Shown: one piece after another, positions 8,275-50,748 of the stretch | Numbering within the stretch: the first letter of the stretch is position 1 | How the letters are laid out: each line of letters opens with the position of its first letter | Assembly: GCF_042242105.1 (NCBI RefSeq) | Contig: NC_092014.1 | Location: forward strand, 1,748,374 to 1,812,373 | Source: Pempheris klunzingeri | Lineage: Eukaryota > Chordata > Actinopteri > Acropomatiformes > Pempheridae | Direction of reading: 5' to 3' | DNA: 64,000 bases | Position numbers and translations under genes: made by a program | Notes under the pieces: model-generated | Databases searched by the model: none | What the model saw: only the letters and a program-made list of their open reading frames with translations | What the model was told of the DNA's origin: nothing

Positions 8275-9759
8275 TGACTTCTCTTATTTCATGTGATGAT
8301 TTCCTGCATTTAAGAGAGTGAATGAACATTTATAGTGTCAACTAAATATCTGATTTCATACAGAATCTGTCTGCTTTGGTGATTGATTTATATGGATCCA
8401 TCACAGAGGAAACATGTCAGTTTGCTGATTTTTGGGTCATTTGTTTCTGTTTTATTACTGTTCTTCTATTTGATGTGCAGCCACAGAAAACATGCTGCTG
8501 AATATTTCACTGTGTCGTCAACAGTTCGGTCCATTACAAACCTGCAGTGTCTACAGAGAACAGCTTGTCTTTGTTATGACGGCTACAAAAACTTAATGGA
8601 CAAAGTCATTAATAGAACTGATGCAGAATTTTCTATGTGATGTGAAAAGTGGTTTGGTGAATTACTGGTGGCTTTGGTCAGTTTTTATGTGGTTTGTGAA
8701 TAATTTGTGGTTCATGGTGAATAATCTGTAAATGTGTGATTGTAAAATGAAGCAGATGTTGAACACGAGGCCTGAATGAGAAGAGAACAGAAAAGCCTGT
8801 TGTTTGTCACCACCAACAATGGAGAGAGGTACTTACTGGATTTAAAGATATTAAAGAGCTGTTTCTGCCAATCATCAATAAATAGTTTGAAAATTGGACT
8901 TTGATTCTGTGGAAATCTTCAGGGTTTTAACCGTTTGCCTTCAGCCCGACCGTGTGCTTCCTGCTGTTTGACTAAAATGACTTTTACCTTTTTCACATGT
9001 TCAGTAAAATCCACACGTCGTCCTGCATGTGAATCATTTCATTGGTGCAGCCTGAACTCGCTCATCTCCCTGGCAGGTTTTGGGGTGAGTACGGGAGAGA
9101 CGGCCGGGACGAATATGATGAGGGTCACATGACTGACGGGGGAGGGCGGCCGACCAGACTGCTCCTCTTCCCAGCTTCTCACAATAAACTCACACATGAA
9201 CTCATCCTTTCTATCTTAAACTGTAACATAACACCTCACTCATCACAAACACTTCATTCACCTTCAAACTCCTGAAAATGCTCAGAAAAGGGGAAAGTTT
9301 GAACACCTACAGTTCTGTGACAACTGAAGACCATGTGACACTGTCAAAAACTCTGGAAGAAGACAACAAGTGGTCCTTGAGTTGAGAGTTTTTGGCAGAC
9401 TGATGTTTTAAAACTAAACAAAATGATGTTTTCCAACAGCACACTCTGGTTTCACTTTATAACAAGAGGAAACATCTGTGGTATCAAATACTGAGATATC
9501 ACATGATGTAAATATAATGTATTGATTAAGATGTGGTAGGAACTGATACACAATGGTTATTATGACAGGAGTGTTGATCAAATAACCAAGGTAGTAGAAG
9601 ATGTAACCAATCAATAAGCATGAAACAATGCAACCAAATATCACATTTTATACTCTGTTTTAAATATAGGATTTTTTTTAACACTTTGTTTAAAAAATGC
9701 AGAAAGAGGAAACCAGAACCTTAAAGGTGTAAATTGACGTGAAAGTATTGTTTAAAAAG
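8275..9759 (+). other. 3' UTR of copy 2 and following spacer
   Basis: Same layout as behind copy 1: poly(A) signal AATAAA at 8877-8882, the small hydrophobic frame (ATG 8392 to 8640), then non-coding array sequence up to the LTR. I see no further gene. Confidence 0.6.
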
Positions 9760-25887: not shown

Positions 25888-25971
25888 ACTGTGTAAATCA
25901 GAGGGAGGAAACAAAAACCCAAACCAAAATAGCAGCATGAACAGGTTGAGCAGGTAGAGAGCTTTAACACT

Positions 25972-26107
25972 GCAGAACTGAAAGTAAAGTCAGTCAGAGT
26001 GGCAGCCAGGCAGCCGTGGAGACACGTCTGTGTTTCTGTCTGAAGAAAATCCAGACTGACTTCATCAGGTCTCCTCAACAACACAGCAGAGCCTCTGCCA
26101 AACACTG
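25972..26107 (+). promoter_or_regulatory. Promoter-proximal block and non-coding exon 1 of copy 5
   Basis: Conserved block with the GAACTGAAAG form of the IRF-like core and a GTGAGT donor at 26108. From this donor the transcript may join the PYD exon (27907) or go straight to the RING-less TRIM exon (29512). Confidence 0.6.
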
Positions 26108-26355
26108 GTGAGTACAGATGATCACATTTACAGCTTCAACCACCAGGATCAACACAAAGCTTCAGCTCCACTCAGCAGGAAGTTCCTCTCTTCTCATTTC
26201 ACACTTGTGACGTTGGTTAAAGTAGAACTACGGCTGTTTGTCCAGCGACCACTTTAACAGCTTTAAACAGCCTCTGTGTGTCAGCTCTCAGGACTTTAGG
26301 GACTTTAAACTGATTCTCTGTGGTTTGGAGTTTAGTTTCCCTCCACTTTCCTGGC

Positions 26356-27285
26356 AGCCATAACCAGGATAATTTGGCTACATTTCTGTACAGTGGTAGG
26401 AAGCAGAGACACGTCTTCCCTCTTTATATGCAGATGATGTTGAAAAACTCCCGATAATTAGCTTCACTTCAGATATAGTGAAGAATGTAAACTTCTGCAG
26501 TGATTGGGCTCGGGCAAGGCCTGCAGACTTCAGCCATGTTGGAAGTAACTGACTGAGACGTTCATGAAATTCTGCAGGATTGTCGCTCTCAAAGTTTCTG
26601 AACTTTACACATATTTATTTTCTTATTTCTTATTGCCCAACAGGAAGTCAGCCAATTTGGACTCCTTGTGCCAATTTTGATCTCATGAGCGAACGCTTAA
26701 AGACTTTAGGATGCTCAAAAACTCAGGAAACTTTGCGCACTCAATCAAAACCAGTGCATTTTGCCAGAATATGCAGTGATCGGGTTTTTGAGTGTTTTGC
26801 TGGCTCCATAGCGCCCCCATTGCGTGGCAAGACTTAGTCAGAGCATTGTGGCTTCAAATATTAGCAAAATCTGGCACGCACATTGCTCTCATCATGTCAG
26901 ACATATTTCACAGTGGCTCTCATCAGTTCTGCCAAACCCCTGGAGGTACAAAGAGACCTGGGTGCATCTTCTGCATAGTTGGGCCCTTAGAGCACCGCAT
27001 ACCTGCACTCAGTCAAGTGACTTCCTGTCAGCTCTCTGCTATGATGAGTGGGAACAAAATAATTTAATCAAAATCTAAATGTTATCAAACCGAATGGATC
27101 AAATTCTGATCTTGAAACGAGTCATTTCTTGGTTTGTGACTGTCAATGAAAACATGTCCCCTGATTTACAAACGTCTCCTTCACAAAGTGAGTCTGTGGG
27201 AAAAAAAATCTTTTTGGGCCAGTTTGGCGTAACGTGATGGACGCCATTGTTGTAATTACACGGTTTGGCCACAAGGTCAATTTGG
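26356..27285. repeat. Unclassified interspersed-repeat-like sequence in class II introns
   Basis: Begins CAGCCATAACCAGG. Equivalent, somewhat shorter copies lie in the introns of copies 6-9 (about 35072-35812, 42325-43065, 49578-50318, 56841-57581). The GCCAATTTGGACTC and AAGACTTTAGGATGCTC words resemble a dispersed fish repeat I remember but cannot name. Frames across it are not credible genes. Confidence 0.4.
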
Positions 27286-27365
27286 CTTCAAAGTAGGGAT
27301 GTGCAGTTCAAGCCAAAATACTATTTGATAGTTCAACTATGAACTGTTCAAGTATTGTTCGATAA

Positions 27366-27398
27366 CACTCACCTTAAAGCTTCACATTATTATTTTTG
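27366..27398. repeat. Direct repeat, left of PYD cassette
   Basis: The stretch CACTCACCTTAAAGCTTC and what follows to TATTTTTG recurs almost exactly at 28454-28489. Copies 6-9 have a single version that joins the left flank of this repeat to the right flank of the other, as expected if the cassette was lost, or gained with duplication, through these repeats. Confidence 0.65.
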
Positions 27399-27906
27399 TG
27401 TTAAGTCACTTGCTGGCCACTAAACACTGAGTAAAGTACTTACGTTTGCACTAAATGGAAATAATAATAATAATAAAACCTTCCTGCTTGTTTCCTCTGT
27501 TGCTGAGCTTTTGTAAATATCTGATAAATTAGACTGACAATGGTTTAAAAAATGATGCTGTTGTTATTGATGTAGTTTCCACATGATGAATCAGCAACAG
27601 AATTGTGTTGTTTTTTGTATCTTCTGTTGCTGATGTGAAGTTTGAATGGCTGAAAGAGCAATCTGACAGTTCATTAACATCCTACTTTAAAATGTGTAGT
27701 TTCAGTAGTGCTCTAACTCAAAGGCAAGTTTCTTTACTTGAAAGAAGCTGAAGCGGCGTGTCACTTAAAAATGACATGAAATCCAGTCACTGGAGTTCAA
27801 ACAGGACAGAAATCACACAAATCACAATCAGGACTCCTGTTTCTGCTCTGATTCATCAGGTTTCCTGCTGGTTGAAAACACCATCTGATCTCAGCAGGCA
27901 GCCACG

Positions 27907-28290
27907 ATGACTCCTGAGGACCTTTTGAACACTCTGGATGATTTAAAAGACGATGAATTCAGGAGCTTCAAATGGTTTCTGAAGCAGCCCGACAGCCTGG
28001 AATGCTACCAACCCATCAGAGTGTCCCAGCTGGAGGGGGCAGAGAGGACGGACACAGTGGATCTGATGGTGAACACCTACAAACCTGATGGAGCTCTGAA
28101 GGTGGCCAAGAAGGTTTTAGAGAAGATAAACAGGAAAGATCTGGCGCAGAGGCTGTCAGACACCAGATCACCATTACAAGGTCACAATAATAATAATAAT
28201 AATTATGTTAATATCTCTGATGGTAAAATGGTTCCACACCAATTTGTTGAAACGTCAATTCTACTCAGAAAACTCGGTTGCAAATTTTAA
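27907..28290 (+). CDS. Pyrin domain (PYD) exon, possibly the 5' coding exon of a pyrin-like gene
   Basis: A 127-codon frame from ATG. Residues 1 to about 88 are a fish-type PYD (LLNTLDDLKDDEFRSFKWFL, then RTDTVDLMVNTY and VLEKINRKDLAQRL). The PYD is a death-fold domain that recruits ASC or other PYD proteins in inflammasome signalling. After residue 91 the sequence becomes asparagine repeats and looks like read-through into intron. Two candidate donors, at 28181 (CAAG/GTCACA, weak) and 28223 (GATG/GTAAAA, better), both end in phase 1. Joined to the acceptor at 29512 either gives GAC followed by the TRIM ATG in frame. A CTCAGCAG acceptor-like site lies just upstream of the ATG (about 27890-27897). 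If unspliced it would be a stand-alone PYD protein. Confidence 0.8.
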   Translation: MTPEDLLNTLDDLKDDEFRSFKWFLKQPDSLECYQPIRVSQLEGAERTDTVDLMVNTYKPDGALKVAKKVLEKINRKDLAQRLSDTRSPLQGHNNNNNNYVNISDGKMVPHQFVETSILLRKLGCKF

Positions 28291-28370
28291 ACCTGCAGCA
28301 GCTGAATTTTTGGTCACGTTGGGGGGCGGCACAACCAGTAATAAACACATGATGACTCAGGTGTTTATCA

Positions 28371-28456
28371 CTAACTGAGTAAATCAGAGTGAGGAAAAAA
28401 AAACCCAAACCAAAATAGCAGCAGGAACAGGTCGAGCAGGTAGAGAGCTTTCACAC
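28371..28456. repeat. Displaced copy of TRIM promoter-proximal sequence
   Basis: This matches by eye the junction upstream of exon 1 in B units, for example 11579-11664 (shared words AACCAAAATAGCAGCAGGAA and GAGCAGGTAGAGAGCTTTC). Here it sits inside the intron, directly after the PYD cassette, and stops just before the exon 1 block would begin. Confidence 0.7.
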
Positions 28457-28489
28457 TCACCTTCAAGCTTCACATTATTATTATTTTTG
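28454..28489. repeat. Direct repeat, right of PYD cassette
   Basis: Partner of 27366-27398; see that entry. The distance between the two repeats is 1088 bp, close to the 1124-bp length difference between this hAT-like element and its copies in units 6-9. Confidence 0.65.
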
Positions 28490-29513
28490 CTTTTATTGCT
28501 CAAACGCGGCAGAATTACACGTTGGACTTGAACGTTTGGATTAAAGCCAACGTTAAGTCGATCGCTGGCCACGACATCCTCCGTCCACCCAGAAGAAGCA
28601 CTGCAGCAGGAGGAGAGTCGAGATAAGAGCTAAGCTAACCCGGCTAATACCTGCGGCTGCTTCTAGCTGATGTCTGGTTGTGAAGATAGGATACCTTAAA
28701 TGGGACGTGACAGGCAAACTACCAGGCACCAGGAAAAACAAAGGAAAATATACTTCTAAAGCAAAACGATAGTCGTATAAACTATTACATTTTTTGGGGG
28801 GGAAATTAACGAAGATTTCAAAATCATGACCCGTCCCTACTTCAAAAGTCTGGAGACCTTCACAGGGGCTTGGCCCAGCAGCACTGAAAGGCAACCATCT
28901 TCAATTTTAAACAACTTTCATGTATTTTAAGCAAATTTTGGGACATTCAATTTAAATAGTATGTCATGTGACAAGGCGCCACTTTGGAGCTATGGAACGT
29001 TTTTGTAAACTTGTCGTCGAGGTTTCAACACTTAATTTTGATCAGCAGAATATCAACACCTTCTCGACACCAAATTGCGAAGCTTTTCTAGTTTCAGGAA
29101 ACGAGGTTGGCACTTAAAGTTATTAATTCACATGCTGGGTAAGAGTGCAGGCCTGGAGACACCTACATGCCCATGTTGAGTTAGTGTTAGCGCCACCTAC
29201 TGGGCAACAAGAGGTCAGACTTATTTAAAATAGATCATTTGATTTACATGAAATTCACTCTGTGTGGTCTTCACATTAAATACAACAACAGGAAGTATAA
29301 TTTGTGTGTGTTGAATAAAGCCACACACTGAACACAGCAGTTGATGTTTCTCTTGTCACAGCTATAAAAAAAAAAAAAAGAACGACATGCCAAAGTAGCG
29401 AAAATGCAGCTACCGCTCAGCCTGAAAGATCACATTCACTGCTGCTGTAAGCTTCAATCAAAACTGTATTTTGACTACATTGTTTTTCCTTTTCTTTCCC
29501 ACTGTGTGCAGAC

Positions 29514-30920
29514 ATGGCTGCTGCAAACTATCTGAGATCTGAGCAACAAGTGTCCAAACCAGCAGAAGTTCCCTGTGACGTCTGCGCTGGAACCAAACTG
29601 AAGGCCCTGAAGTCCTGCCTGGTGTGTCTGCTCTCCTACTGTGAGACTCACCTGGAGCCTCATCTGACACTGTCAGGCCTGAGAAGACATCAGCTGATCG
29701 ACCCTGTGGAAAACCTGGATAGCAGGATGTGTACGAAGCACGATAAACCTCTGGAGCTGTTCTGTAAGACCGACCAGACGTATATCTGCGTGCTCTGCTC
29801 TGTTTTAGACCACAAGACACATGAGTTTGCTCCTCTGAAAGAAGAATATGAAGGACAGAAGGCCGAGCTGGGGAAGACAGAGGCTGAAATCCAGCAGATG
29901 ATCCAGAAGAGACGACTGAAGATTGAGGAGATCAAACGGTCAGCTGACCTCAGTCAGGAAGATGCAGACAGAGTGATAGCAGAATGTCTTCAGGTCTTCA
30001 CTTCTCTGAAGGAGCGTGTTGAGAGAGGCCAGGCAGAGCTCTTCAACACCATCAAACAGAAGCAGGAAAGAGCAGAAAAACAGGCCCAAGCTTTCATCAG
30101 AGAGCTGGAACAGGAAATCTCTGAGCTGATGAAGAGGAGGACTGAGGTGGAGCAGCTCTCACGCTCTGAAGACCACCTCCATCTCCTCCAGAGTGTCCAG
30201 TCCCTCAACACCAACCAGCCTCCAGCCACCAGGGACTGGACAGAGGTCAGCGTCCCTCCACCGTCCTATGAGGGGACTGTGAGGAGAGCTGTGGCTCAGC
30301 TGGAGCAGGATCTCAGTAAAGAGATGAAGAAGCTGATTAAAGCTGAGCTGAGGAGGGTCCAGAAGTTTGCAGTGGATGTGACTCTTGATCCTGATACAGC
30401 AAATCCTAACCTCATCCTGTCTGATGATGGGAAACAAGTGAATCATGGTGATGTGAGGAAGAAACTCCCAGACAATCCAGAGAGGTTTTCTAAGTGTAAC
30501 ATTGTCTTAGGAGAGCAGAGTTTCTCTTCAGGCAGATTTTACTTTGAGGTTCAGGTTAAAGGAAAAACTGAATGGACTTTAGGAGTGGCCAGAGAGTCGA
30601 TCAACAGGAAAGAGAACATTAGACTGAGCCCTAAGAAAGGTAACTGGACTGTATGGTTGAGGAATGGGAATGAGTACGAAGCTATTGATAACCCTTCAGT
30701 CCGTCTCTCTCTGAGGTCTCAGCCTCAGAAGGTGGGGGTGTTTGTGGACTATGAGGACGGTCTGGTCTCCTTTTATGACGTAGATGCTGCAGCTCTCATC
30801 TACTCCTTCACCGGCTGCTCCTTCACTGAGAAACTCTTCCCCTTCTTCGGTCCGTGTCTTAATGATGGAGGCAAAAACTCTGCCCCTCTGATCATCTCTC
30901 CTGTACACGCAGTAGACTGA
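29514..30920 (+). CDS. TRIM copy 5, RING-less: B-box-coiled coil-PRY-SPRY (468 aa)
   Basis: Same MAAANYLRSE start and upstream acceptor as its neighbours, but residues 11-91 of the full-length copies (the whole RING and its serine-rich linker) are deleted in frame, so the protein runs MAAANYLRSEQQVSKP. Both B-box-like regions, the coiled coil and the PRY-SPRY are intact. Without a RING it is not expected to act as a ubiquitin ligase alone. It might act as a decoy for RING-bearing paralogues through the coiled coil or, if spliced to the PYD at 27907, as a pyrin-like sensor. B-box2 reads TYICVLCSVLDHKTHEF, linking it to copies 6-9. SPRY sites: CNIV, KTEWTLGV, SPKKGN, AIDNPSVRL. No stops in the frame. 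Confidence 0.92.
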   Translation: MAAANYLRSEQQVSKPAEVPCDVCAGTKLKALKSCLVCLLSYCETHLEPHLTLSGLRRHQLIDPVENLDSRMCTKHDKPLELFCKTDQTYICVLCSVLDHKTHEFAPLKEEYEGQKAELGKTEAEIQQMIQKRRLKIEEIKRSADLSQEDADRVIAECLQVFTSLKERVERGQAELFNTIKQKQERAEKQAQAFIRELEQEISELMKRRTEVEQLSRSEDHLHLLQSVQSLNTNQPPATRDWTEVSVPPPSYEGTVRRAVAQLEQDLSKEMKKLIKAELRRVQKFAVDVTLDPDTANPNLILSDDGKQVNHGDVRKKLPDNPERFSKCNIVLGEQSFSSGRFYFEVQVKGKTEWTLGVARESINRKENIRLSPKKGNWTVWLRNGNEYEAIDNPSVRLSLRSQPQKVGVFVDYEDGLVSFYDVDAAALIYSFTGCSFTEKLFPFFGPCLNDGGKNSAPLIISPVHAVD

Positions 30921-36242: not shown

Positions 36243-36587
36243 CTTCAAAGCCTGAAGACCTTCCCAGGGGCTTGGCCCAGCAGCACGGATAGTCTTCAAT
36301 AGTCTTCGATTTTAAAACAGATCATTTGACTTACATGAAATTCACTCTGTGTGGTCTTCACATTAAATACAACAGGAAGAATAATTTGTGTGTGTTGAAT
36401 AAAGCCACACAGTGAACACAGCAGGTGATATTTCTCTCGTCACAGCTCTAAAAAGAAGAAGAACGGCTAGCCGAAGTAACGAAAATGCAGCTACCGCTCA
36501 GCCTGAAAGAACACATTCACTGCTGCTGTAAGCTTCAATCAATTTTGACTACACTGTTTTTCCTTTTCTTTCCCACTGTGTGCAGAC

Positions 36588-38240
36588 ATGGCTGCAGCAA
36601 ACTATCCGAGATCTGAAGATCAGTTTCTGTGCTCCCTCTGTCTGGATGTGCTCACTGATCCTGTCACCACACCATGTGGACACAACTTCTGCAAAACCTG
36701 CATCACTGAACACTGGAACACTAACGACCGGTTTCTGTGTCCCTTGTGTAAAGAGGCTTTTACCACAAGACCTGATTTGAGGGTCAACACTTTGCTCTCT
36801 GAGATGGTCTCTCAGTTCAGACAGTCAGCTCAACAGGACGCCAGCAGCAGCAGCTCAGAGCAACAAGTGTCCAAACCAAGAGAAGTTCCTTGTGACGTCT
36901 GCACTGGAACCAAACTGAAGGCCCTGAAGTCCTGCCTGGTGTGTCTGGTCTCCTACTGTGAGACTCACCTGGAGCCTCATCTGACAGCTTCAGGCCTGAA
37001 AAGACACCAGCTGATCGACCCTGTGGAGAACCTGGACAGCAGGATGTGTACGAAGCACGATAAACCTCTGGAGCTGTTCTGTAAGACCGACCAGACGTAT
37101 ATCTGCGTGCTCTGCTCTGTTTTAGACCACAAGACACATGAGTTTGTTCCTCTGAAAGAAGAATATGAAGGACAGAAGGCCGAGCTGGGGAAGACAGAGG
37201 CTGAAATCCAGCAGATGATCCAGAAGAGACGACTGAAGATTGAGGAGATCAAACGGTCAGCTGACCTCAGTCAGGAAGATGCAGACAGAGCGATAGCAGA
37301 AGGTGTTCAGGTCTTCACTTCTCTGAAGGAGCGTGTTGAGAGAGGCCAGGCAGAGCTCATCAACACCATCAAAGAGAAGCAGGAAAGAGCAGAAAAACAG
37401 GCCCAAGCTTTCATCAGAGAGCTGGAACAGGAAATCTCTGAGCTGATGAAGAGGAGGACTGAGGTGGAGCAGCTCTCACGCTCTGAAGACCACCTCCATC
37501 TCCTCCAGAGTGTCCAGACCCTCAACACCAACCAGCCTCCAGCCACCAGGGACTGGACAGAGGTCAGCGTCCCTCCACCGTCCTATGAGGGGACTGTGAG
37601 GAGAGCTGTGGCTCAGCTGGAGGAGGATCTCAGTAAAGAGATGAAGAAGCTGATTAAAGCTGAGCTGAGGAGGGTCCAGAAGTTTGCAGTGGATGTGACT
37701 CTTGATCCTGATACAGCACATCCTGATCTCATCCTGTCTGATGATGGGAAACAAGTGAATGATGGTGATGTGAAGAGGAAAAAACTCCCAGACAATCCAG
37801 AGAGGTTTTCTAAGTATATCATTGTCTTAGGAGAGCAGAGTTTCTCTTCAGGCAGATTCTACTTTGAGGTTCAGGTTAAAGGAAAAACTGAATGGTCTTT
37901 AGGAGTGGCCAGAGAGTCGATCAACAGGAAAGAGAACATTAGACTGAGCCCTGAGGATGGTTACTGGACTGTATGGTTGAGGAATGGGAATGAGTACGAA
38001 GCTTGTGAGAACCCTTCAGTCCTTCTCTCTCTGAGGTCTCAGCCTCAGAAGGTGGGGGTGTTTGTGGACTATGAGGACGGTCTGGTCTCCTTTTATGACG
38101 TAGATGCTGCAGCTCTCATCTACTCCTTCACCGGCTGCTCCTTCACTGAGAAACTCTTCCCCTACTTCAATCCGTGTCTTAATGATGGAGGCAAAAACTC
38201 TGCCCCTCTGATCATCTCTCCTGTACACGCAGTAGACTGA
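36588..38240 (+). CDS. TRIM copy 6, complete RING-B-box-coiled coil-PRY-SPRY protein (550 aa)
   Basis: Intact, with the RING variant shared by copies 6-9 (CSLCLDVLTDPVTT, CPLCKEAF). The proline before C30 is kept (TTPCGHNF), whereas copies 7-9 have serine there. B-box2 carries TYICVLC and DHKTHEF, as in copy 5. The SPRY has the two-codon KR insertion (DVKRKKL) and the variable sites YIIV, KTEWSLGV, SPEDGY, ACENPSVLL. The stop TGA overlaps an ATG (TGATG) that opens a 75-codon frame to 38467. Start fixed by the acceptor at 36585. Confidence 0.95.
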   Translation: MAAANYPRSEDQFLCSLCLDVLTDPVTTPCGHNFCKTCITEHWNTNDRFLCPLCKEAFTTRPDLRVNTLLSEMVSQFRQSAQQDASSSSSEQQVSKPREVPCDVCTGTKLKALKSCLVCLVSYCETHLEPHLTASGLKRHQLIDPVENLDSRMCTKHDKPLELFCKTDQTYICVLCSVLDHKTHEFVPLKEEYEGQKAELGKTEAEIQQMIQKRRLKIEEIKRSADLSQEDADRAIAEGVQVFTSLKERVERGQAELINTIKEKQERAEKQAQAFIRELEQEISELMKRRTEVEQLSRSEDHLHLLQSVQTLNTNQPPATRDWTEVSVPPPSYEGTVRRAVAQLEEDLSKEMKKLIKAELRRVQKFAVDVTLDPDTAHPDLILSDDGKQVNDGDVKRKKLPDNPERFSKYIIVLGEQSFSSGRFYFEVQVKGKTEWSLGVARESINRKENIRLSPEDGYWTVWLRNGNEYEACENPSVLLSLRSQPQKVGVFVDYEDGLVSFYDVDAAALIYSFTGCSFTEKLFPYFNPCLNDGGKNSAPLIISPVHAVD

Positions 38241-39653
38241 TGACTTCTCTTATTTCATGTGATGATTTACTGCATTTAAGAGAGCGAATGAATATTTATA
38301 GTGTCGATGAAATATCTGATTTCATACAGAATCTGTTTTCTTTGGTGATTGATTTATATGGATCCATCACAGAGGAAACACGTCAGTTTGCTGATTTTTG
38401 GGTCATTTGTTTCTGTTTTATTACTGTTCTTCTATTTGATGTGCAGCCACAGAAAACATGCTGCTGAATATTTCACTGTGTCGTCAACAGTTCGGTCCAT
38501 TACATACCTGCAGTGTCTACAGAGAACAGCTTGTCTTTGTTATGACGGCTACAAAAACTTAATGGACAAAGTGATTAACAGAACTGATGCAGAATTTTCT
38601 ATGTGATGTGAAAAGTGGTTTGGTGAATTACTGGTGGCTTTGGTCAGTTTTTATGTGGTTTGTGAATAATTTGTGGTTCATGGTGAATAATCTGTAAATG
38701 TGTGATTGTACAATGGAGAGAGGTAATTACTGGATTTAAAGACATTAAAGAACTGTTTCTGCCAATCATCAATAAATAGTTTGAAAATTGGACTTTGATT
38801 CTGTGGAAATCTTCAGGGTTTTAACCGTTTGCCTTCAGCCCGACCGTGTGCTTCCTGCTGTTTGACTAAAATGACTTTTACCTTTTTCACATGTTCAGTA
38901 AAATCCACACGTCGTCCTGCATGTGAATCATTTCATTGGTGCAGCCTGAACTCGCTCATCTCCCTGGCAGGTTTTGGGGTGAGTACGGGAGAGACGGCCG
39001 GGACGAATATGATGAGGGTCACATGACTGACGGGGGAGGGCGGCCGACCAGACTGCTCCTCTTCCCAGCTTCTCACAATAAACTCACACATGAACTCATC
39101 CTTTCTGCCTTAAACTGTAACATAACACCTCACTCATCACAAATACTTAATTCACCTTCAAACTCCTGAAAATGCTTAGAAAAGGGGAAAGTTTGAACAC
39201 CTACAGTTCTGTGACAACTGAAGACCATGTGACACGGTCAAAAACTCTGGAAGAAGACAACAAGTGGTCCTTGAGTTGAGATGTTTTGGCAGACTGACGT
39301 TTTCAAACTAAACAAAATGATGTTTTCCAACAGCACACTCTGGTTTCACTTTATAACAAGATGAAACATCTGTGGTATCAAATACTGAGATATCACATGA
39401 TGTAAATATAATGTATTGATTAAGATGTGGTAGGAACTGATACACGATGGTTAGTATGACAGGAGTGTTGATCAAATAACCAAGGTAATAGAAGATGTAA
39501 CCAATCAATAAGCATGAAACAATGCAACCAAATATCACATTTTATACTCTGTTTTAAATATAGGATTTTTTAACACTTAACACTTAAAAAATGCAGTAAG
39601 AGGAAACCAGAACCTTAAAAGTGTAAATTGAAGTGAAAGTACTGTTTAAAAAG

Positions 39654-39998
39654 TGTTGAGGAGGAGCTGGAACCTAATAGTGTCAGCAGATGGTGCTGTA
39701 GGATAAAGACAAAATAATAGCTGCTCAGTGGAAGCTCACAAGGTCGGACAAAGTGATCAGGTCAAGTGGAGTTCAGAGGGACAAACTCCTCCTCATCAAA
39801 GGTGGTATAATTTCATTGGTTGAGGAAAGATGCTAGGGGGCAGGCAGATGCTGGTTTTGGGTTATAAAAGATGGAACCCGTGCATTGTTTAGTCAGAACT
39901 GTTTGTTTGGGCTTTGTTGTGGACAATAAACCTCCACTGTGCTGAACTCTAAACTCTCCCGGTGCCTATTTGGAAGATTGACTCTTTGGTTTTTTACA
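39654..39998 (+). mobile_element. Candidate solo LTR (unit 6)
   Basis: Equivalent of 32401-32745. The stretch 38241-39653 before it is the 3' UTR (AATAAA at 38771) and spacer, with no gene recognised. Confidence 0.45.
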
Positions 39999-40571
39999 CT
40001 TTGAATAACCTGGATGGAGAAGATTGACCCAGAAAAGATAAGAATGACAATAAAAGTGATGAGAGCACAGAAAGAAAATGTAATGTTGATCACCATAAAC
40101 AAAGTGGTGTAAACTCTTTAAAGCTTCCCACTGTCACCAGACGTTACAGTTACACTCCACAGCCTGATGGTAACATCAGTACAGCTTTCAGCTACATTCA
40201 TTCATGATGCAAAACACAATGTCTGCTTACCTTCATCTTCATCAGCAGCCACTGTGCAGTAGAAACTCTATGACGTCTCTATTGAGGCTAACAGACAGTT
40301 TTAGACTCTGAAGCATTAGTCCAAGACTTAAGAAGCACTCATTGTAATGATGAAATGATTTCACCAGTACAGACAGTTTAATGTCCTGTGAAAACTGGGA
40401 ATAAAGGAGCAGTTTCCTGTTTTCATCTGTAGTTTCCTGCAGTGCTTCTTCTTGCAGGCAACAAGACGGACAACAACAATAATTCAAGTTCTGTTTGCTG
40501 AAAGTCGACCTCATTGTTTCAGGTTAAATTTCCACACTGACAACAAAATAGTATTGTCTGGTCTCTCTGGA

Positions 40572-41856
40572 ATGGAATCCCCCAATGAATCGCCGCCTTA
40601 TCGTGGTCGGGGAGTTTGTGCTTCCCTGAGAACCTGGGAGCTGTGTTGTCGGGGCTATGGCCCCTGGTAGGGTCTCCAAAGGCAAAGTGGTTCCAGGGGA
40701 GGGGCCAGAGTAAGAGCGGTTCAAAAACCCTGTATGAAGCAGAACCCAAAGAGCAACGTACCCTCACCCGGGTTAGGGAATCAGGGACCCCCTTCTGGAG
40801 CCAGACCTGGGAGGGGAGCTCAGTGGCGAGTGTCTAGTGGCTGGGCCACAGAGCAAGCCCAAAAGGAACAATGTGGAACTGCAACCCTGTGGGCTCACCA
40901 CCTGCAGGAGCCTCTACAGGTCCTGGGCGTGCAGACCCCCGGCATCGTAGACTGGCTCTAAGGACATGGAACATCACCTCTCTGGAGACTACTGAGTCGG
41001 AGCTGGTGCGGGAGGCTGAACGCTACCAGCTAGATATAGTCAGGCTTGCGTCCATGCACAGCATCGACTCTGGAACCAAACTCCTGGAGAGGGGCTGGAC
41101 TCTCTCCTTTTATGGAGATGCTCAGAGTGAGAGGCGCCAGACGGGTCTGGGGATACTCAGCAGGGAGTCCCGGGTGAACAAGAGGGCCGCCTCCATGCAA
41201 CTCTGGGTTGCTGATTGTTGTGTGTGCATATGCACCAAACAGCAGTTCAGAGTATCCGGCCTTCTTAAAGGCTCTGGATGGATCAGATGGTGGGAGAGGT
41301 TGCCGGACAGACCTGGTAGGTGCAAATATGTAGTGAGGGTTTGTTGGGAACGTCTGGTGGAGGCCCCTGTCTAGGAGGTCTTCAACTCCCACCTCCGGAA
41401 GAGTTTCTCGTACATCCCGAGGGAGGTTGGGGACATGGAATCCCAGTGGGCCATGTTCAAAGCCTCCATTGCAGAGGCAGCTGCTGAGAGCTGTGGCCAG
41501 AAGGTCGTTGGTGGACGCTGGCGGTGAGGGAGGTCGTCAAGCTGAAGGAGGCCTTCAAGCCTGGCTGGCTCGGGGGCTATGGAGAGGGACTTTTGGGTGG
41601 CCTCAAGGAAGTTCTGGCAAACCATTCGGCGGCTCTGGAAGGGCAAGCGGGGTTGGCTCAGGCTGTATTCAGCCAGAGAGGAGAACTGCTGACCCAGACT
41701 GGGGTTATCATAGGGTGGTGGGAAGGACACTTTGAAGAACTCCTGAACCCAATCAACACTGAGATTTGACCTGAGATGCTGAGGCCTCTGGACATTGTTG
41801 GGCTGTTGTGGTTGACAAGCCTCTTCAGTGTGGTGTGGAGGTGAGGGACAGTACCT
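40572..41856 (+). mobile_element. RTE-type LINE fragment (unit 7)
   Basis: Copy of 33319-34603 at the exact 7253-bp offset. Differs at a few bases, for example CCCAGACTGGGGTTATC where unit 6 has CCCGGACTGGGGATATC. Confidence 0.7.
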
Positions 41857-41941
41857 AACTGTGCAAATCAGAGGGAGGAAACAAAACCCCAAACCAAAAT
41901 AGCAGCAGGAACAGGTTGAGCAGGTAGAGAGCTTTAACACT

Positions 41942-42077
41942 GCAGAACTGAAAGTAAAGTCAGTCAGAGTGGCAGCCGGGCAGCCGTGGAGACACGTCTT
42001 TGTTTCTGTCTAAAGAAAATCCAGACTGACTTCATCAGGTCTCCTCAACAACACAGCAGAGCCTCTGCCAAACACTG
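41942..42077 (+). promoter_or_regulatory. Promoter-proximal block and non-coding exon 1 of TRIM copy 7
   Basis: Carries the GAACTGAAAG form (AANNGAAA fit), unlike unit 6. Donor at 42078; predicted intron 42078-43838. Confidence 0.6.
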
Positions 42078-43073
42078 GTGAGTACAGATGATCACATTTA
42101 CAGCTTCAACCACCAGGATTAACACAAAACTTCAGCTCCGCTCAGCAGGAAGTTCCTCTTTTCTCATTTCACACTTGTGACGTTGGTTAAAGTAGAACTA
42201 CGGCTGTTTGTCCAGCGACCACTTTAACAGCTTTAAACAGCCTCTGTGTGTCAGCTCTCAGGACTTTAGGGACTTTAAACTGATCCTCTGTGGGTTGGAG
42301 TTTAGTTTCCCTCCACTTTCCTGGCAGCCATAACCAGGATAATTCGGCTAAATTTCTGTACAGTCGTAGGAAGCAGAGACACATCTTCCCTCTTTATATG
42401 CAGACAATGTTGAAAAACTCAAGATAATTAGCTTCACTTCAGATATAGCGAAGAATGTAAACTTCTGCAGTGAATGGGCTCGGGCGAGGCCTGCAGACTT
42501 CAGCCATGTTGGAAGTAACTGACCGAGACGTTCATGAAATTCGGTGGGATCATCGCTCTCAAAGTTCTGAACCTTACACATATTTATTTTCTTATTTCTT
42601 AGTGCCCAACAGGAAGTCAGCCAATTTGGACTCATGAGCAAACGCTTAAAGACTTTAGGATGCTCAAAAACTCAGGAAACTTTGCGCACTCATCAAAACC
42701 AGTGCATTTTGCCAGAATATGCAGTGATCGGGTTCTTGAGTGTTTTGCGTGGCAAGACTTAGTCAGAGCATTGTGGCTTCAAATATTCACAAAATCTGGC
42801 ACTCTCATCAGCTCTGCCAAACCCCTGGAGGTACAAAGAGACCTGAGTGCAACATTAGAGGCGGATCTTCTGCATAGTTGGGCCCTTAGAGCACCACATA
42901 CCTGCACTGAGTCAGGTGACTTCCTGTCAGCCGTCTGCTATGATGAGTGGGAACAAAATGATTTAATTCTGATCAAATTCTGATCTTGAAACAAGGGAAC
43001 AGTTTGGCGTCAAGTGATGGATGCCATTTTTGTAATTACACCGTTTGACCACGAGGTCAAACTGGCTTCAAAG

Positions 43074-43495
43074 TAGGGATGTGCAGTTCAAGCCAAAATA
43101 CTATTTGATAGTTCATCTATGAACTGTTCAACTATTGTTTGATAACACTCACCTTCAAGCTTCGCATTATTATTTTCGCTTTTATTGCTTAAACATGGCA
43201 GAATTACATATTGGACATGAGTGTTTGGATTAAAGCAAACGTTAAGTCGATCGCTGGCCACGAAATCCTCCGTCCAACCAGAACAAGCGCCGCAGTGGGA
43301 GGAGAGTCGAGATAACAGCTAAGATAATCCGGCTAATACCTGCGGCTGCTTCTAGCTGATGTCCGGGTGCAAAGATCGGTTGCATGAAATGGGACCTGAC
43401 AAAGGAAAACAAAGGAAAATATACTTCTAAAGCAAAACGATAGTCGTATTAACTATTACATTTTTTTTGAAAATGAACGAATATTTGAAAACCTA
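43074..43495. mobile_element. hAT-like non-autonomous element (unit 7)
   Basis: Copy of 35821-36242 with the same CTTCAAAG flanks. Confidence 0.62.
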
Positions 43496-43840
43496 CTTCA
43501 AAGCCTGAAGACCTTCCCAGGGGCTTGGCCCAGCAGCACGGATAGTCTTCAATAGTCTTCGATTTTAAAACAGATCATTTGACTTACATGAAATTCACTC
43601 TGTGTGGTCTTCACATTAAATACAACAGGAAGAATAATTTGTGTGTGTTGAATAAAGCCACACAGTGAACACAGCAGGTGATATTTCTCTCGTCACAGCT
43701 CTAAAAAGAAGAAGAACGGCTAGCCGAAGTAACGAAAATGCAGCTACCGCTCAGCCTGAAAGAACACATTCACTGCTGCTGTAAGCTTCAATCAATTTTG
43801 ACTACACTGTTTTTCCTTTTCTTTCCCACTGTGTGCAGAC

Positions 43841-45493
43841 ATGGCTGCAGCAAACTATCCGAGATCTGAAGATCAGTTTCTGTGCTCCCTCTGTCTGGAT
43901 GTGCTCACTGATCCTGTCACCACATCATGTGGACACAACTTCTGCAAAACCTGCATCACTGAACACTGGAACACTAACGACCGGTTTCTGTGTCCCTTGT
44001 GTAAAGAGGCTTTTACCACAAGACCTGATTTGAGGGTCAACACTTTGCTCTCTGAGATGGTCTCTCAGTTCAGACAGTCAGCTCAACAGGACGCCAGCAG
44101 CAGCAGCTCAGAGCAACAAGTGTCCAAACCAAGAGAAGTTCCTTGTGACGTCTGCACTGGAACCAAACTGAAGGCCCTGAAGTCCTGCCTGGTGTGTCTG
44201 GTCTCCTACTGTGAGACTCACCTGGAGCCTCATCTGACAGCTTCAGGCCTGAAAAGACACCAGCTGATCGACCCTGTGGAGAACCTGGACAGCAGGATGT
44301 GTACGAAGCACGATAAACCTCTGGAGCTGTTCTGTAAGACCGACCAGACGTATATCTGCGTGCTCTGCTCTGTTTTAGACCACAAGACACATGAGTTTGT
44401 TCCTCTGAAAGAAGAATATGAAGGACAGAAGGCCGAGCTGGGGAAGACAGAGGCTGAAATCCAGCAGATGATCCAGAAGAGACGACTGAAGATTGAGGAG
44501 ATCAAACGGTCAGCTGACCTCAGTCAGGAAGATGCAGACAGAGCGATAGCAGAAGGTGTTCAGGTCTTCACTTCTCTGAAGGAGCGTGTTGAGAGAGGCC
44601 AGGCAGAGCTCATCAACACCATCAAAGAGAAGCAGGAAAGAGCAGAAAAACAGGCCCAAGCTTTCATCAGAGAGCTGGAACAGGAAATCTCTGAGCTGAT
44701 GAAGAGGAGGACTGAGGTGGAGCAGCTCTCACGCTCTGAAGACCACCTCAATCTCCTCCAGAGTGTCCAGACCCTCAACACCAACCAGCCTCCAGCCACC
44801 AGGGACTGGACAGAGGTCAGCGTCCCTCCACCGTCCTATGAGGGGACTGTGAGGAGAGCTGTGGCTCAGCTGGAGGAGGATCTCAGTAAAGAGATGAAGA
44901 AGCTGATTAAAGCTGAGCTGAGGAGGGTCCAGAAGTTTGCAGTGGATGTGACTCTTGATCCTGATACAGCACATCCTGATCTCATCCTGTCTGATGATGG
45001 GAAACAAGTGAATGATGGTGATGTGAAGAGGAAAAAACTCCCAGACAATCCAGAGAGGTTTTCTAAGTATATCATTGTCTTAGGAGAGCAGAGTTTCTCT
45101 TCAGGCAGATTCTACTTTGAGGTTCAGGTTAAAGGAAAAACTGAATGGTCTTTAGGAGTGGCCAGAGAGTCGATCAGCAGGAAAGAGAACATTAGACTGA
45201 GCCCTGAGGATGGTTACTGGACTGTATGGTTGAGGAATGGGAATGAGTACGAAGCTTGTGAGAACCCTTCAGTCCTTCTCTCTCTGAGGTCTCAGCCTCA
45301 GAAGGTGGGGGTGTTTGTGGACTATGAGGACGGTCTGGTCTCCTTTTATGACGTAGATGCTGCAGCTCTCATCTACTCCTTCACCGGCTGCTCCTTCACT
45401 GAGAAACTCTTCCCCTACTTCAATCCGTGTCTTAATGATGGAGGCAAAAACTCTGCCCCTCTGATCATCTCTCCTGTACACGCAGTAGACTGA
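43841..45493 (+). CDS. TRIM copy 7, complete RING-B-box-coiled coil-PRY-SPRY protein (550 aa)
   Basis: Differs from copy 6 at three residues as read by eye: P29 to S in the RING (TTSCGHNF), H to N near the end of the coiled coil (EDHLNLLQ), and N to S in the SPRY (RESISRK). Zinc ligands and SPRY motifs are all present, so it should be functional. The stop/ATG overlap and 75-codon downstream frame (45493-45720) are kept. Confidence 0.95.
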   Translation: MAAANYPRSEDQFLCSLCLDVLTDPVTTSCGHNFCKTCITEHWNTNDRFLCPLCKEAFTTRPDLRVNTLLSEMVSQFRQSAQQDASSSSSEQQVSKPREVPCDVCTGTKLKALKSCLVCLVSYCETHLEPHLTASGLKRHQLIDPVENLDSRMCTKHDKPLELFCKTDQTYICVLCSVLDHKTHEFVPLKEEYEGQKAELGKTEAEIQQMIQKRRLKIEEIKRSADLSQEDADRAIAEGVQVFTSLKERVERGQAELINTIKEKQERAEKQAQAFIRELEQEISELMKRRTEVEQLSRSEDHLNLLQSVQTLNTNQPPATRDWTEVSVPPPSYEGTVRRAVAQLEEDLSKEMKKLIKAELRRVQKFAVDVTLDPDTAHPDLILSDDGKQVNDGDVKRKKLPDNPERFSKYIIVLGEQSFSSGRFYFEVQVKGKTEWSLGVARESISRKENIRLSPEDGYWTVWLRNGNEYEACENPSVLLSLRSQPQKVGVFVDYEDGLVSFYDVDAAALIYSFTGCSFTEKLFPYFNPCLNDGGKNSAPLIISPVHAVD

Positions 45494-46906
45494 TGACTTC
45501 TCTTATTTCATGTGATGATTTACTGCATTTAAGAGAGCGAATGAATATTTATAGTGTCGATGAAATATCTGATTTCATACAGAATCTGTTTGCTTTGGTG
45601 ATTGATTTATATGGATCCATCACAGAGGAAACACGTCAGTTTGCTGATTTTTGGGTCATTTGTTTCTGTTTTATTACTGTTCTTCTATTTGATGTGCAGC
45701 CACAGAAAACATGCTGCTGAATATTTCACTGTGTCGTCAACAGTTCGGTCCATTACATACCTGCAGTGTCTACAGAGAACAGCTTGTCTTTGTTATGACG
45801 GCTACAAAAACTTAATGGACAAAGTGATTAACAGAACTGATGCAGAATTTTCTATGTGATGTGAAAAGTGGTTTGGTGAATTACTGGTGGCTTTGGTCAG
45901 TTTTTATGTGGTTTGTGAATAATTTGTGGTTCATGGTGAATAATCTGTAAATGTGTGATTGTACAATGGAGAGAGGTAATTACTGGATTTAAAGACATTA
46001 AAGAACTGTTTCTGCCAATCATCAATAAATAGTTTGAAAATTGGACTTTGATTCTGTGGAAATCTTCAGGGTTTTAACCGTTTGCCTTCAGCCCGACCGT
46101 GTGCTTCCTGCTGTTTGACTAAAATGACTTTTACCTTTTTCACATGTTCAGTAAAATCCACACGTCGTCCTGCATGTGAATCATTTCATTGGTGCAGCCT
46201 GAACTCGCTCATCTCCCTGGCAGGTTTTGGGGTGAGTACGGGAGAGACGGCCGGGACGAATATGATGAGGGTCACATGACTGACGGGGGAGGGCGGCCGA
46301 CCAGACTGCTCCTCTTCCCAGCTTCTCACAATAAACTCACACATGAACTCATCCTTTCTGCCTTAAACTGTAACATAACACCTCACTCATCACAAATACT
46401 TAATTCACCTTCAAACTCCTGAAAATGCTTAGAAAAGGGGAAAGTTTGAACACCTACAGTTCTGTGACAACTGAAGACCATGTGACACGGTCAAAAACTC
46501 TGGAAGAAGACAACAAGTGGTCCTTGAGTTGAGATGTTTTGGCAGACTGACGTTTTCAAACTAAACAAAATGATGTTTTCCAACAGCACACTCTGGTTTC
46601 ACTTTATAACAAGATGAAACATCTGTGGTATCAAATACTGAGATATCACATGATGTAAATATAATGTATTGATTAAGATGTGGTAGGAACTGATACACGA
46701 TGGTTAGTATGACAGGAGTGTTGATCAAATAACCAAGGTAATAGAAGATGTAACCAATCAATAAGCATGAAACAATGCAACCAAATATCACATTTTATAC
46801 TCTGTTTTAAATATAGGATTTTTTAACACTTAACACTTAAAAAATGCAGTAAGAGGAAACCAGAACCTTAAAAGTGTAAATTGAAGTGAAAGTATTGTTT
46901 AAAAAG

Positions 46907-47251
46907 TGTTGAGGAGGAGCTGGAACCTAATAGTGTCAGCAGATGGTGCTGTAGGATAAAGACAAAATAATAGCTGCTCAGTGGAAGCTCACAAGGTCGG
47001 ACAAAGTGATCAGGTCAAGTGGAGTTCAGAGGGACAAACTCCTCCTCATCAAAGGTGGTATAATTTCATTGGTTGGGGAAAGATGCTAGGGGGCAGGCAG
47101 ATGCTGGTTTTGGGTTATAAAAGATGGAACCCGTGCATTGTTTAGTCAGAACTGTTTGTTTGGGCTTTGTTGTGGACAATAAACCTCCACTGTGCTGAAC
47201 TCTAAACTCTCCCGGTGCCTATTTGGAAGATTGACTCTTTGGTTTTTTACA
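46907..47251 (+). mobile_element. Candidate solo LTR (unit 7)
   Basis: Copy of 39654-39998. The 3' UTR before it has AATAAA at 46024. Confidence 0.45.
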
Positions 47252-47824
47252 CTTTGAATAACCTGGATGGAGAAGATTGACCCAGAAAAGATAAGAATGA
47301 CAATAAAAGTGATGAGAGCACAGAAAGAAAATGTAATGTTGATCACCATAAACAAAGTGGTGTAAACTCTTTAAAGCTTCCCACTGTCACCAGACGTTAC
47401 AGTTACACTCCACAGCCTGATGGTAACATCAGTACAGCTTTCAGCTACATTCATTCATGATGCAAAACACAATGTCTGCTTACCTTCATCTTCATCAGCA
47501 GCCACTGTGCAGTAGAAACTCTATGACGTCTCTATTGAGGCTAACAGACAGTTTTAGACTCTGAAGCATTAGTCCAAGACTTAAGAAGCACTCATTGTAA
47601 TGATGAAATGATTTCACCAGTACAGACAGTTTAATGTCCTGTGAAAACTGGGAATAAAGGAGCAGTTTCCTGTTTTCATCTGTAGTTTCCTGCAGTGCTT
47701 CTTCTTGCAGGCAACAAGACGGACAACAACAATAATTCAAGTTCTGTTTGCTGAAAGTCGACCTCATTGTTTCAGGTTAAATTTCCACACTGACAACAAA
47801 ATAGTATTGTCTGGTCTCTCTGGA

Positions 47825-49109
47825 ATGGAATCCCCCAATGAATCGCCGCCTTATCGTGGTCGGGGAGTTTGTGCTTCCCTGAGAACCTGGGAGCTGTGTT
47901 GTCGGGGCTATGGCCCCTGGTAGGGTCTCCAAAGGCAAAGTGGTTCCAGGGGAGGGGCCAGAGTAAGAGCGGTTCAAAAACCCTGTATGAAGCAGAACCC
48001 AAAGAGCAACGTACCCTCACCCGGGTTAGGGAATCAGGGACCCCCTTCTGGAGCCAGACCTGGGAGGGGAGCTCAGTGGCGAGTGTCTAGTGGCTGGGCC
48101 ACAGAGCAAGCCCAAAAGGAACAATGTGGAACTGCAACCCTGTGGGCTCACCACCTGCAGGAGCCTCTACAGGTCCTGGGCGTGCAGACCCCCGGCATCG
48201 TAGACTGGCTCTAAGGACATGGAACATCACCTCTCTGGAGACTACTGAGTCGGAGCTGGTGCGGGAGGCTGAACGCTACCAGCTAGATATAGTCAGGCTT
48301 GCGTCCATGCACAGCATCGACTCTGGAACCAAACTCCTGGAGAGGGGCTGGACTCTCTCCTTTTATGGAGATGCTCAGAGTGAGAGGCGCCAGACGGGTC
48401 TGGGGATACTCAGCAGGGAGTCCCGGGTGAACAAGAGGGCCGCCTCCATGCAACTCTGGGTTGCTGATTGTTGTGTGTGCATATGCACCAAACAGCAGTT
48501 CAGAGTATCCGGCCTTCTTAAAGGCTCTGGATGGATCAGATGGTGGGAGAGGTTGCCGGACAGACCTGGTAGGTGCAAATATGTAGTGAGGGTTTGTTGG
48601 GAACGTCTGGTGGAGGCCCCTGTCTAGGAGGTCTTCAACTCCCACCTCCGGAAGAGTTTCTCGTACATCCCGAGGGAGGTTGGGGACATGGAATCCCAGT
48701 GGGCCATGTTCAAAGCCTCCATTGCAGAGGCAGCTGCTGAGAGCTGTGGCCAGAAGGTCGTTGGTGGACGCTGGCGGTGAGGGAGGTCGTCAAGCTGAAG
48801 GAGGCCTTCAAGCCTGGCTGGCTCGGGGGCTATGGAGAGGGACTTTTGGGTGGCCTCAAGGAAGTTCTGGCAAACCATTCGGCGGCTCTGGAAGGGCAAG
48901 CGGGGTTGGCTCAGGCTGTATTCAGCCAGAGAGGAGAACTGCTGACCCAGACTGGGGTTATCATAGGGTGGTGGGAAGGACACTTTGAAGAACTCCTGAA
49001 CCCAATCAACACTGAGATTTGACCTGAGATGCTGAGGCCTCTGGACATTGTTGGGCTGTTGTGGTTGACAAGCCTCTTCAGTGTGGTGTGGAGGTGAGGG
49101 ACAGTACCT
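47825..49109 (+). mobile_element. RTE-type LINE fragment (unit 8)
   Basis: Copy of 40572-41856, sharing its CCCAGACTGGGGTTATC variant. Confidence 0.7.
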
Positions 49110-49194
49110 AACTGTGCAAATCAGAGGGAGGAAACAAAACCCCAAACCAAAATAGCAGCAGGAACAGGTTGAGCAGGTAGAGAGCTTTAACACT

Positions 49195-49330
49195 GCAGAA
49201 CTGAAAGTAAAGTCAGTCAGAGTGGCAGCCGGGCAGCCGTGGAGACACGTCTTTGTTTCTGTCTAAAGAAAATCCAGACTGACTTCATCAGGTCTCCTCA
49301 ACAACACAGCAGAGCCTCTGCCAAACACTG
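49195..49330 (+). promoter_or_regulatory. Promoter-proximal block and non-coding exon 1 of TRIM copy 8
   Basis: GAACTGAAAG form; donor at 49331; predicted intron 49331-51091. Confidence 0.6.
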
Positions 49331-50326
49331 GTGAGTACAGATGATCACATTTACAGCTTCAACCACCAGGATTAACACAAAACTTCAGCTCCGCTCAGCA
49401 GGAAGTTCCTCTTTTCTCATTTCACACTTGTGACGTTGGTTAAAGTAGAACTACGGCTGTTTGTCCAGCGACCACTTTAACAGCTTTAAACAGCCTCTGT
49501 GTGTCAGCTCTCAGGACTTTAGGGACTTTAAACTGATCCTCTGTGGGTTGGAGTTTAGTTTCCCTCCACTTTCCTGGCAGCCATAACCAGGATAATTCGG
49601 CTAAATTTCTGTACAGTCGTAGGAAGCAGAGACACATCTTCCCTCTTTATATGCAGACAATGTTGAAAAACTCAAGATAATTAGCTTCACTTCAGATATA
49701 GCGAAGAATGTAAACTTCTGCAGTGAATGGGCTCGGGCGAGGCCTGCAGACTTCAGCCATGTTGGAAGTAACTGACCGAGACGTTCATGAAATTCGGTGG
49801 GATCATCGCTCTCAAAGTTCTGAACCTTACACATATTTATTTTCTTATTTCTTAGTGCCCAACAGGAAGTCAGCCAATTTGGACTCATGAGCAAACGCTT
49901 AAAGACTTTAGGATGCTCAAAAACTCAGGAAACTTTGCGCACTCATCAAAACCAGTGCATTTTGCCAGAATATGCAGTGATCGGGTTCTTGAGTGTTTTG
50001 CGTGGCAAGACTTAGTCAGAGCATTGTGGCTTCAAATATTCACAAAATCTGGCACTCTCATCAGCTCTGCCAAACCCCTGGAGGTACAAAGAGACCTGAG
50101 TGCAACATTAGAGGCGGATCTTCTGCATAGTTGGGCCCTTAGAGCACCACATACCTGCACTGAGTCAGGTGACTTCCTGTCAGCCGTCTGCTATGATGAG
50201 TGGGAACAAAATGATTTAATTCTGATCAAATTCTGATCTTGAAACAAGGGAACAGTTTGGCGTCAAGTGATGGATGCCATTTTTGTAATTACACCGTTTG
50301 ACCACGAGGTCAAACTGGCTTCAAAG

Positions 50327-50748
50327 TAGGGATGTGCAGTTCAAGCCAAAATACTATTTGATAGTTCATCTATGAACTGTTCAACTATTGTTTGATAACA
50401 CTCACCTTCAAGCTTCGCATTATTATTTTCGCTTTTATTGCTTAAACATGGCAGAATTACATATTGGACATGAGTGTTTGGATTAAAGCAAACGTTAAGT
50501 CGATCGCTGGCCACGAAATCCTCCGTCCAACCAGAACAAGCGCCGCAGTGGGAGGAGAGTCGAGATAACAGCTAAGATAATCCGGCTAATACCTGCGGCT
50601 GCTTCTAGCTGATGTCCGGGTGCAAAGATCGGTTGCATGAAATGGGACCTGACAAAGGAAAACAAAGGAAAATATACTTCTAAAGCAAAACGATAGTCGT
50701 ATTAACTATTACATTTTTTTTGAAAATGAACGAATATTTGAAAACCTA
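50327..50748. mobile_element. hAT-like non-autonomous element (unit 8)
   Basis: Copy of 35821-36242. Confidence 0.62.

Follow-up and report, generated by a model that had tools for sequence, protein, structure and literature searches.

Pyrin (MEFV, TRIM20) carries a PYD, a B-box, a coiled coil and a B30.2 domain in that order and lacks a RING. Section 16 of PMC4852459 presents its origin as a proposal without an observed intermediate, and the relevant passage of a 2019 review (PMC6721725) places that origin after the fish-tetrapod split and gives pyrin as absent from zebrafish. The sections of PMC3137616 cited here report trim20 in pufferfish and not in zebrafish, recurrent RING loss, and domain gain in the fish TRIM genes ftr06, ftr52 and btr31. 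A passage of PMC11218377 calls a cyprinid gene annotated mefv wrongly annotated, a typical TRIM. Our searches of an open-access library turned up no report of a PYD-TRIM gene in fish; a 'PYD' lead in PMC12286827 was the yeast vector PYD1 and unrelated, and PMC8698530 contained none of the terms sought. Here we describe copy 5, a RING-less member of a tandem TRIM array in the 646-Mb genome of Pempheris klunzingeri that has a PYD exon in its intron. It lies in a 64,000-nucleotide stretch (C3:1748374-1812373, hereafter the window) that holds part of the array, and it is almost certainly a recent chimera of NLR and TRIM sequence.

The PYD of copy 5 was first called in a sequence-only reading of this DNA, and the call is borne out: 27907-28287 covers the whole Pfam PYRIN model (E 9.6e-24, 83.8 bits against a cut-off of 22.9). 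The frame is open to a stop at 28288-28290 (127 aa), with an AATAAA 50 bp beyond. The PYD precedes the TRIM exon by about 1.3 kb and has the same orientation, and in that exon Pfam finds a B-box, a coiled coil, PRY and SPRY and no RING (Table 1). Exon 1 is 97-100% identical over 164 bp among eight window copies, copy 5 included, and ends in a strong donor at 26108 (CTG/GTGAGT, the slash marking the exon end; matrix score 6.4, all splice-site scores being approximate values from rough matrices). Among solved structures, the TRIM part is best matched by 4cg4, the coiled-coil/B30.2 structure of human pyrin (E 8e-58). RING-bearing copy 6 has the same best match, so this is a property of the array and was rejected as a sign of pyrin ancestry.

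The array may belong to the bloodthirsty/TRIM39-type or finTRIM arrays of fish, tandem families of RING-B-box-coiled coil-B30.2 genes, although copy 5 itself has no RING. At least 24 members, copy 5 counted among them here and below, lie on C3 between 1438465 and 1808370 with 89-100% identity to copy 5; the genome searches scored the best candidates only (80 of 80 for the PYD, 91 of 493 for TRIM), so that such counts are lower bounds. Frames of 556-563 aa, the length of a RING-bearing member, are found in 22 of the 24. The two short ones are copy 5 (481) and C3:1573686-1575071 (497), the latter part of a second PYD-TRIM locus, L010 (C3:1573686-1576588). Pfam detects a RING in all seven other complete window members and in neither short one; copy 1, cut by the window edge, has a genome frame of RING length (562 aa). 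RING presence in the remaining members was read from frame length; Pfam on the L010 TRIM returns a B-box, a coiled coil and PRY-SPRY without a RING. Both short members bear a PYD, whereas none of the 22 RING-length members has one of its own: for the next member along each array the nearest PYD is the same one, 9-11 kb off and past the short gene. The initial claim that copy 5 is the sole RING-less and sole PYD-bearing member thus holds within the window, where the next tblastn match to the PYD has E 5, and fails genome-wide because of L010.

L010 lies about 0.2 Mb from copy 5 in the opposite orientation. Its DNA is 92% identical to the copy 5 unit and comprises the same exon 1 (98.8% identity), PYD, RING deletion and TRIM exon, with the PYD at the same distance and orientation; its alignment to 27650-30913 is collinear (91.9% over 3283 columns), and about 1 kb has been inserted where its SPRY exon reaches the last codons. 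The PYD frame is open in both. Compared with copy 3, the RING deletion of copy 5 removes 81 codons, keeps the frame and has a 3-base GAG microhomology at its junction. The same junction occurs in L010, so PYD insertion and RING loss most likely preceded duplication of the unit. If RING loss were random among the 24 members, it would hit the PYD-bearing one by chance about once in 24, which is suggestive only.

The PYD can be traced to a family on the same chromosome. A genome search gave 75 PYD matches, 15 of them on C3 and two of these inside the TRIM array; the ten fetched of the other 13 are relatives of the window PYD with 79-93% DNA identity, and the window PYD groups beside the C3 NLR-type loci in a tree. 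The segment 27471-28184 matches C3:555507-556305 (L012) and C3:888016-888810 (L011) at 90-93%, 5' flank included, each in two pieces. With a longer query, to 28460, the main match of all ten C3 NLR-type PYDs stops at 28184; this end of homology rests on the longer query, as the shorter one itself stops there. A FISNA-NACHT exon lies downstream at L011, L013, L014 and L018, four of the seven NLR-type loci with frames listed (L009, L011-L014, L016 and L018), and the group is therefore called PYD-NLR genes. No FISNA-NACHT exon was seen in the stretch fetched at the other three, which include L012, one of the two best donor matches, and L009, whose stretch lies on the wrong side of its PYD. The NACHT exons end in LLPVV(R/K)AS(R/S)KAL, near group 5 in Table 4 of PMC6988351, and the fish NLR-C proteins as tabulated there (PYD-FISNA-NACHT, often with B30.2) are the source family of the PYD. 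Unlike NLR-C genes, neither PYD-TRIM locus has a FISNA-NACHT exon between PYD and TRIM. The nearest PYD-NLR genes, at 1.400-1.405 Mb, are 33 kb from the first TRIM match.

What follows the PYD comes from a TRIM. From 28185 onward the DNA is the upstream flank of a TRIM exon 1, and at a further locus, L020, 27400-27472 and 28195-28396 are contiguous across an (AAT)n tract with no PYD remnant, as expected of an empty site. The site stands some 220 bp before an exon 1 that is assigned by position to a TRIM whose frame has 559 aa, and the GT of 28223 and the AATAAA of 28340 are already present at the site. The PYD donor reads AAG/GTCAGT in all ten NLR-type PYDs compared and AAG/GTCACA in both PYD-TRIM loci, so the GT survived the breakpoint while the remainder of the donor was lost (GTCAGT to GTCACA). 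Because the PYD block resembles PYD-NLR genes of the same chromosome, sits in the (AAT)n tract of a TRIM flank and has an empty site, we regard a recent chimeric origin of the unit as near certain. The PYD may have landed first in the flank of a TRIM, about 220 bp ahead of exon 1, and the TRIM flank bearing it may then have recombined into the intron of copy 5 through shared hAT sequence. Carriage of the PYD by the hAT-like element itself is not favoured: the element, collinear in copies 6-9, occupies the same place there and holds no PYD, and it is in the (AAT)n tract that the PYD segment has its boundary. The flanking repeat of the element is seen in copy 6 too. An old PYD lost elsewhere was rejected on account of the empty site.

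Table 1. Features of the copy 5 unit, in window coordinates.
Feature	Coordinates	Strand	Remarks
Exon 1, 5' untranslated, start approximate	25967..26107	+	no ATG in 25972-26107
hAT-like element in intron	27294..28839	+	ends TAGGGATG.. and ..CGTCCCTA; flanks CTTCAAAG and CTTCAAAA; putative class
Block inserted in hAT-like element relative to copies 6-9	27365..28452	+	from sequence comparison; bounded by a 33-bp direct repeat, 94% identical (27365-27397 and 28453-28485)
NLR-derived segment: 5' flank, PYD exon and first four intron bases (GTCA)	27471..28184	+	
PYD exon as predicted	27860..28180	+	acceptor 27859 (alternative 27897), ATG 27907, donor GT 28181 or 28223
Copy of TRIM exon-1 upstream flank	28185..28452	+	starts in (AAT)n tract; contains donor 28223 and AATAAA 28340
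RING-less TRIM coding exon	29512..30920	+	coding sequence 29514-30920, 468 aa; B-box, coiled coil, PRY-SPRY
Remnant N terminus up to RING-deletion junction	29514..29543	+	from comparison with copy 3

Based on its exon phases, the PYD could be joined to the TRIM exon. The acceptor had been placed near 27898; by the rough matrix the best one is 27859, which ranks among the top 0.1% of window AGs, and 27897, at 94%, becomes the alternative. At two loci where the PYD has lost its ATG, the 27894/27897 acceptor has a counterpart following a RING exon, in frame as read. GT 28181, which is the NLR genes' own donor position in damaged context, and GT 28223, which belongs to the TRIM flank, each leave one base, as the sequence-only reading stated, and the phase is 1 in both PYD-TRIM loci. 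The predicted join adds 10 or 24 codons after the PYD and one Asp before the TRIM N terminus. That reading had also singled out the AC-ATG start of the TRIM exon as fitting this phase. The start is as described, but all eight complete window members share it; a phase match by itself would arise one time in three, and we do not take it as proof.

Substitutions and indels between the two copies differ in what they suggest. Copy 5 and L010 differ by 4.7% in the PYD, 3.3% in the 5' flank, 2.5-4.2% in the hAT part and intron, and 3.1% in the TRIM exon; the values for two short segments that follow the donor are 18% and 0%. The ratio of nonsynonymous to synonymous rates (dN/dS) is 0.93 for the PYD, a value resting on few changes (3 synonymous, 10 nonsynonymous), 0.95 for the B-box and coiled coil and 1.35 for PRY-SPRY. 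Four pairs of RING-bearing members give 0.67-3.05, so a ratio near 1 is no mark of a pseudogene here. Nine indels, seven of them frame-breaking, fall in 1541 bp of noncoding sequence, against a single 9-base indel in about 1660 bp of coding sequence; seven frame-breaking indels against none has p of about 0.006 under an even spread. This suggests constraint on the coding parts taken together, with too few events to speak for the PYD on its own.

We propose an in-phase PYD-TRIM fusion protein as the product of this two-copy chimeric gene, a prediction that we consider evenly poised between true and false. At least part of the transcripts would join exon 1, the PYD exon and the TRIM exon to encode PYD - B-box - coiled coil - B30.2. 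Multimerisation would fall to the coiled coil and B-box and ligand binding to the fast-changing B30.2, and, by analogy with pyrin (PMC10653879), the clustered PYDs would recruit ASC and seed ASC filaments. Loss of the RING would remove the E3 output, and we count the coincidence of RING loss and PYD in the same units for the fusion. At the human ASC interface positions, whose charges we take to be E13, K21, R41 and D48, the PYD keeps the charge sign at E13, K21 and D48 (three of four). At C21:22090779-22092428 and at C11:26172745-26174348 a PYD exon is separated from a CARD exon by 1.2 kb, and these pairs are candidates for ASC-like adaptors.

Several observations weigh against the fusion. Donor 28181 scores -1.2, compared with 4.4 for the NLR donor from which it derives, and 28223 scores 1.3 (2.9 in L010), also below the NLR donor; the donors of two other PYD exon types in the genome score 0.2-2.9. 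Strong sites at exon 1 and at the TRIM acceptor favour skipping of the PYD exon, an AATAAA at 28340 stands between the PYD and TRIM exons, and the phase match carries only its 1-in-3 weight. The PYD diverges between the copies no less than its noncoding surroundings, and against L011 and L012 it differs by 9.1% and 7.7% where the 5' flank differs by 8.2% and 6.9%; substitutions give the PYD no sign of purifying selection in the comparisons made. Without a microsatellite segment the indel p rises to about 0.02 by hand count, and gene conversion with neighbours may hold the TRIM frame open. The two copies share one origin, so the coincidence of PYD and RING loss is one event. The position of ASC R41 is a V in the PYD.

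The PYD exon might instead be a passenger, with exon 1 always spliced to 29512 and the damaged donor keeping the PYD out of the mRNA. In keeping with this, the PYD donors are weak whereas the exon 1 donor before them and the TRIM acceptor after them are strong, the PYD changes at the flank rate with a dN/dS of 0.93, and the TRIM exon retains its own start codon. The passenger reading sits poorly with a PYD frame open in both copies, the strong acceptor at 27859 and a loss of the RING in just those units that bear a PYD (2 of the 24 members), and we hold it to be a serious but somewhat unlikely alternative. Transcripts might otherwise run past the weak donor to the AATAAA at 28340 and encode the PYD by itself (127 aa in copy 5), as a protein that acts as an inflammasome decoy. 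The open frame to 28288-28290, with the AATAAA 50 bp further, permits this; the frame beyond 28184 is TRIM flank and different in L010, and the AATAAA, present at the empty site, was not gained for the PYD, which makes such a protein improbable.

Slightly less probable again is that both loci are decaying, non-functional debris of array turnover, as the dN/dS near 1 in the PYD and the B-box/coiled coil and the insertion of about 1 kb in the end of the L010 SPRY exon might indicate. Intact RING-bearing pairs also show dN/dS of 0.7-3, and the coding parts, about 1660 bp, have no stop or frameshift where 1541 noncoding bp have taken seven frame-breaking indels. Finally, the PYD-TRIM arrangement could be ancestral, the RING members having lost the PYD by recombination between direct repeats; the 33-bp repeat flanks the block, and deletion would leave one copy of it. 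We consider this very improbable given the 90-93% identity of the PYD segment, 5' flank included, to C3 NLR-type loci, its grouping next to these loci in the tree, and the lack of any remnant at the (AAT)n empty site of L020. What the sequence-only reading called a pyrin-like gene made from a RING-type TRIM thus divides in two: assembly inside the TRIM array is supported by the donor family, the empty site, the RING junction and the second copy, while the fusion product faces weak donors and a PYD that shows no purifying selection in the comparisons made.

Supposing that the fusion is made, its predicted domain order and lack of a RING are those of pyrin. Orthology is another matter. The TRIM part is 89-94% identical to RING-length array members and the PYD comes from same-chromosome NLR-type loci; since much closer relatives of each half lie on the same contig, they do not trace to MEFV, a result reached with no MEFV sequence in a tree and no search for the canonical mefv locus, and we read the resemblance to pyrin as one of layout only. 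The linker of human pyrin is about 280 residues long. By length, the 10 or 24 codons plus Asp predicted here are no equivalent of that linker and its PKN/14-3-3 phosphosites S208 and S242, for which no motif search was made; both sites, and a negative action of the human B30.2 on assembly, are given in the passages of PMC10653879 used here. The fusion would work like pyrin without the phospho-regulated linker, and RhoA guarding in the manner of pyrin is unlikely in a protein lacking one.

Copy 5 appears to have formed much as the cited part of the model of Howe et al. (2016) proposes for pyrin. An event of the kind proposed is thus visible here while divergence is still a few percent, which allows exon copying, RING loss and splice repair to be ordered and tested as separate steps. 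The zebrafish genes ftr06, ftr52 and btr31, as described in the cited sections of PMC3137616, likewise acquired a domain by exon insertion or replacement, ftr06 keeping the displaced exon intact. Their gains are C-terminal or in the middle, and that of btr31 is confirmed by expressed sequence tags, whereas the gain predicted for copy 5 is an N-terminal death-fold domain in the place of the RING. If the fusion is made, fish would have an unsuspected inflammasome sensor, and the swap of RING for PYD would be a testable rule by which TRIM output changes from ubiquitin to inflammasome.

Exchange may also have run the other way. Two loci next to the array have a TRIM-type RING exon (donor AGG/GTAAGT, phase 0) upstream of a PYD that has lost its ATG, into which the frame continues as read. 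These likely encode RING-PYD proteins, with a NACHT exon behind one of them, the reverse of the PYD-TRIM exchange. At L018 (G000:C3:1397132-1407031, minus strand) RING exons lie at 8654-8902 and about 4135-4371, PYDs at 7971-8240 and 3169-3441, and FISNA-NACHT at 672-2561. A garbled sentence in PMC8122782 names the RING among the domains of fish NLRC3-like proteins, and the cited passage of PMC2657112 describes B30.2 shuffling between finTRIMs and NLRs. We only tentatively suggest, at somewhat less than even probability, that pyrin has been re-invented here as a young two-copy PYD-TRIM inflammasome sensor, with NLR-TRIM exchange in both directions.

Outside the array, at L001 and G000:C22:1933452-1935816 (minus strand), a PYD is followed after 1 kb by two PRY-SPRY domains in tandem (431-aa frame). 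A minisatellite separates the PYD from them, no NACHT was seen, and this locus is possibly a PYD-B30.2-B30.2 gene. Large PYD clusters occur at G000:C18:712469-1594400 (17 of the 75 matches) and C8:22169048-22197392 (10 of the 75), and a TRIM with 71% identity at C5:2058931 has a PYD 10.2 kb upstream. A TRIM search of viral contigs gave no relative, and a scan with NCBIfam, a prokaryote library, gave no match.

Within the array, PRY-SPRY dN/dS exceeds 1 in 10 of the 11 computed pairs of members and reaches about 3, which fits published reports on fish TRIM B30.2 domains. Copies 6, 7 and 8 (window 36549-53224) are nearly identical, with start codons at a 7253-bp period, and are a very recent amplification.

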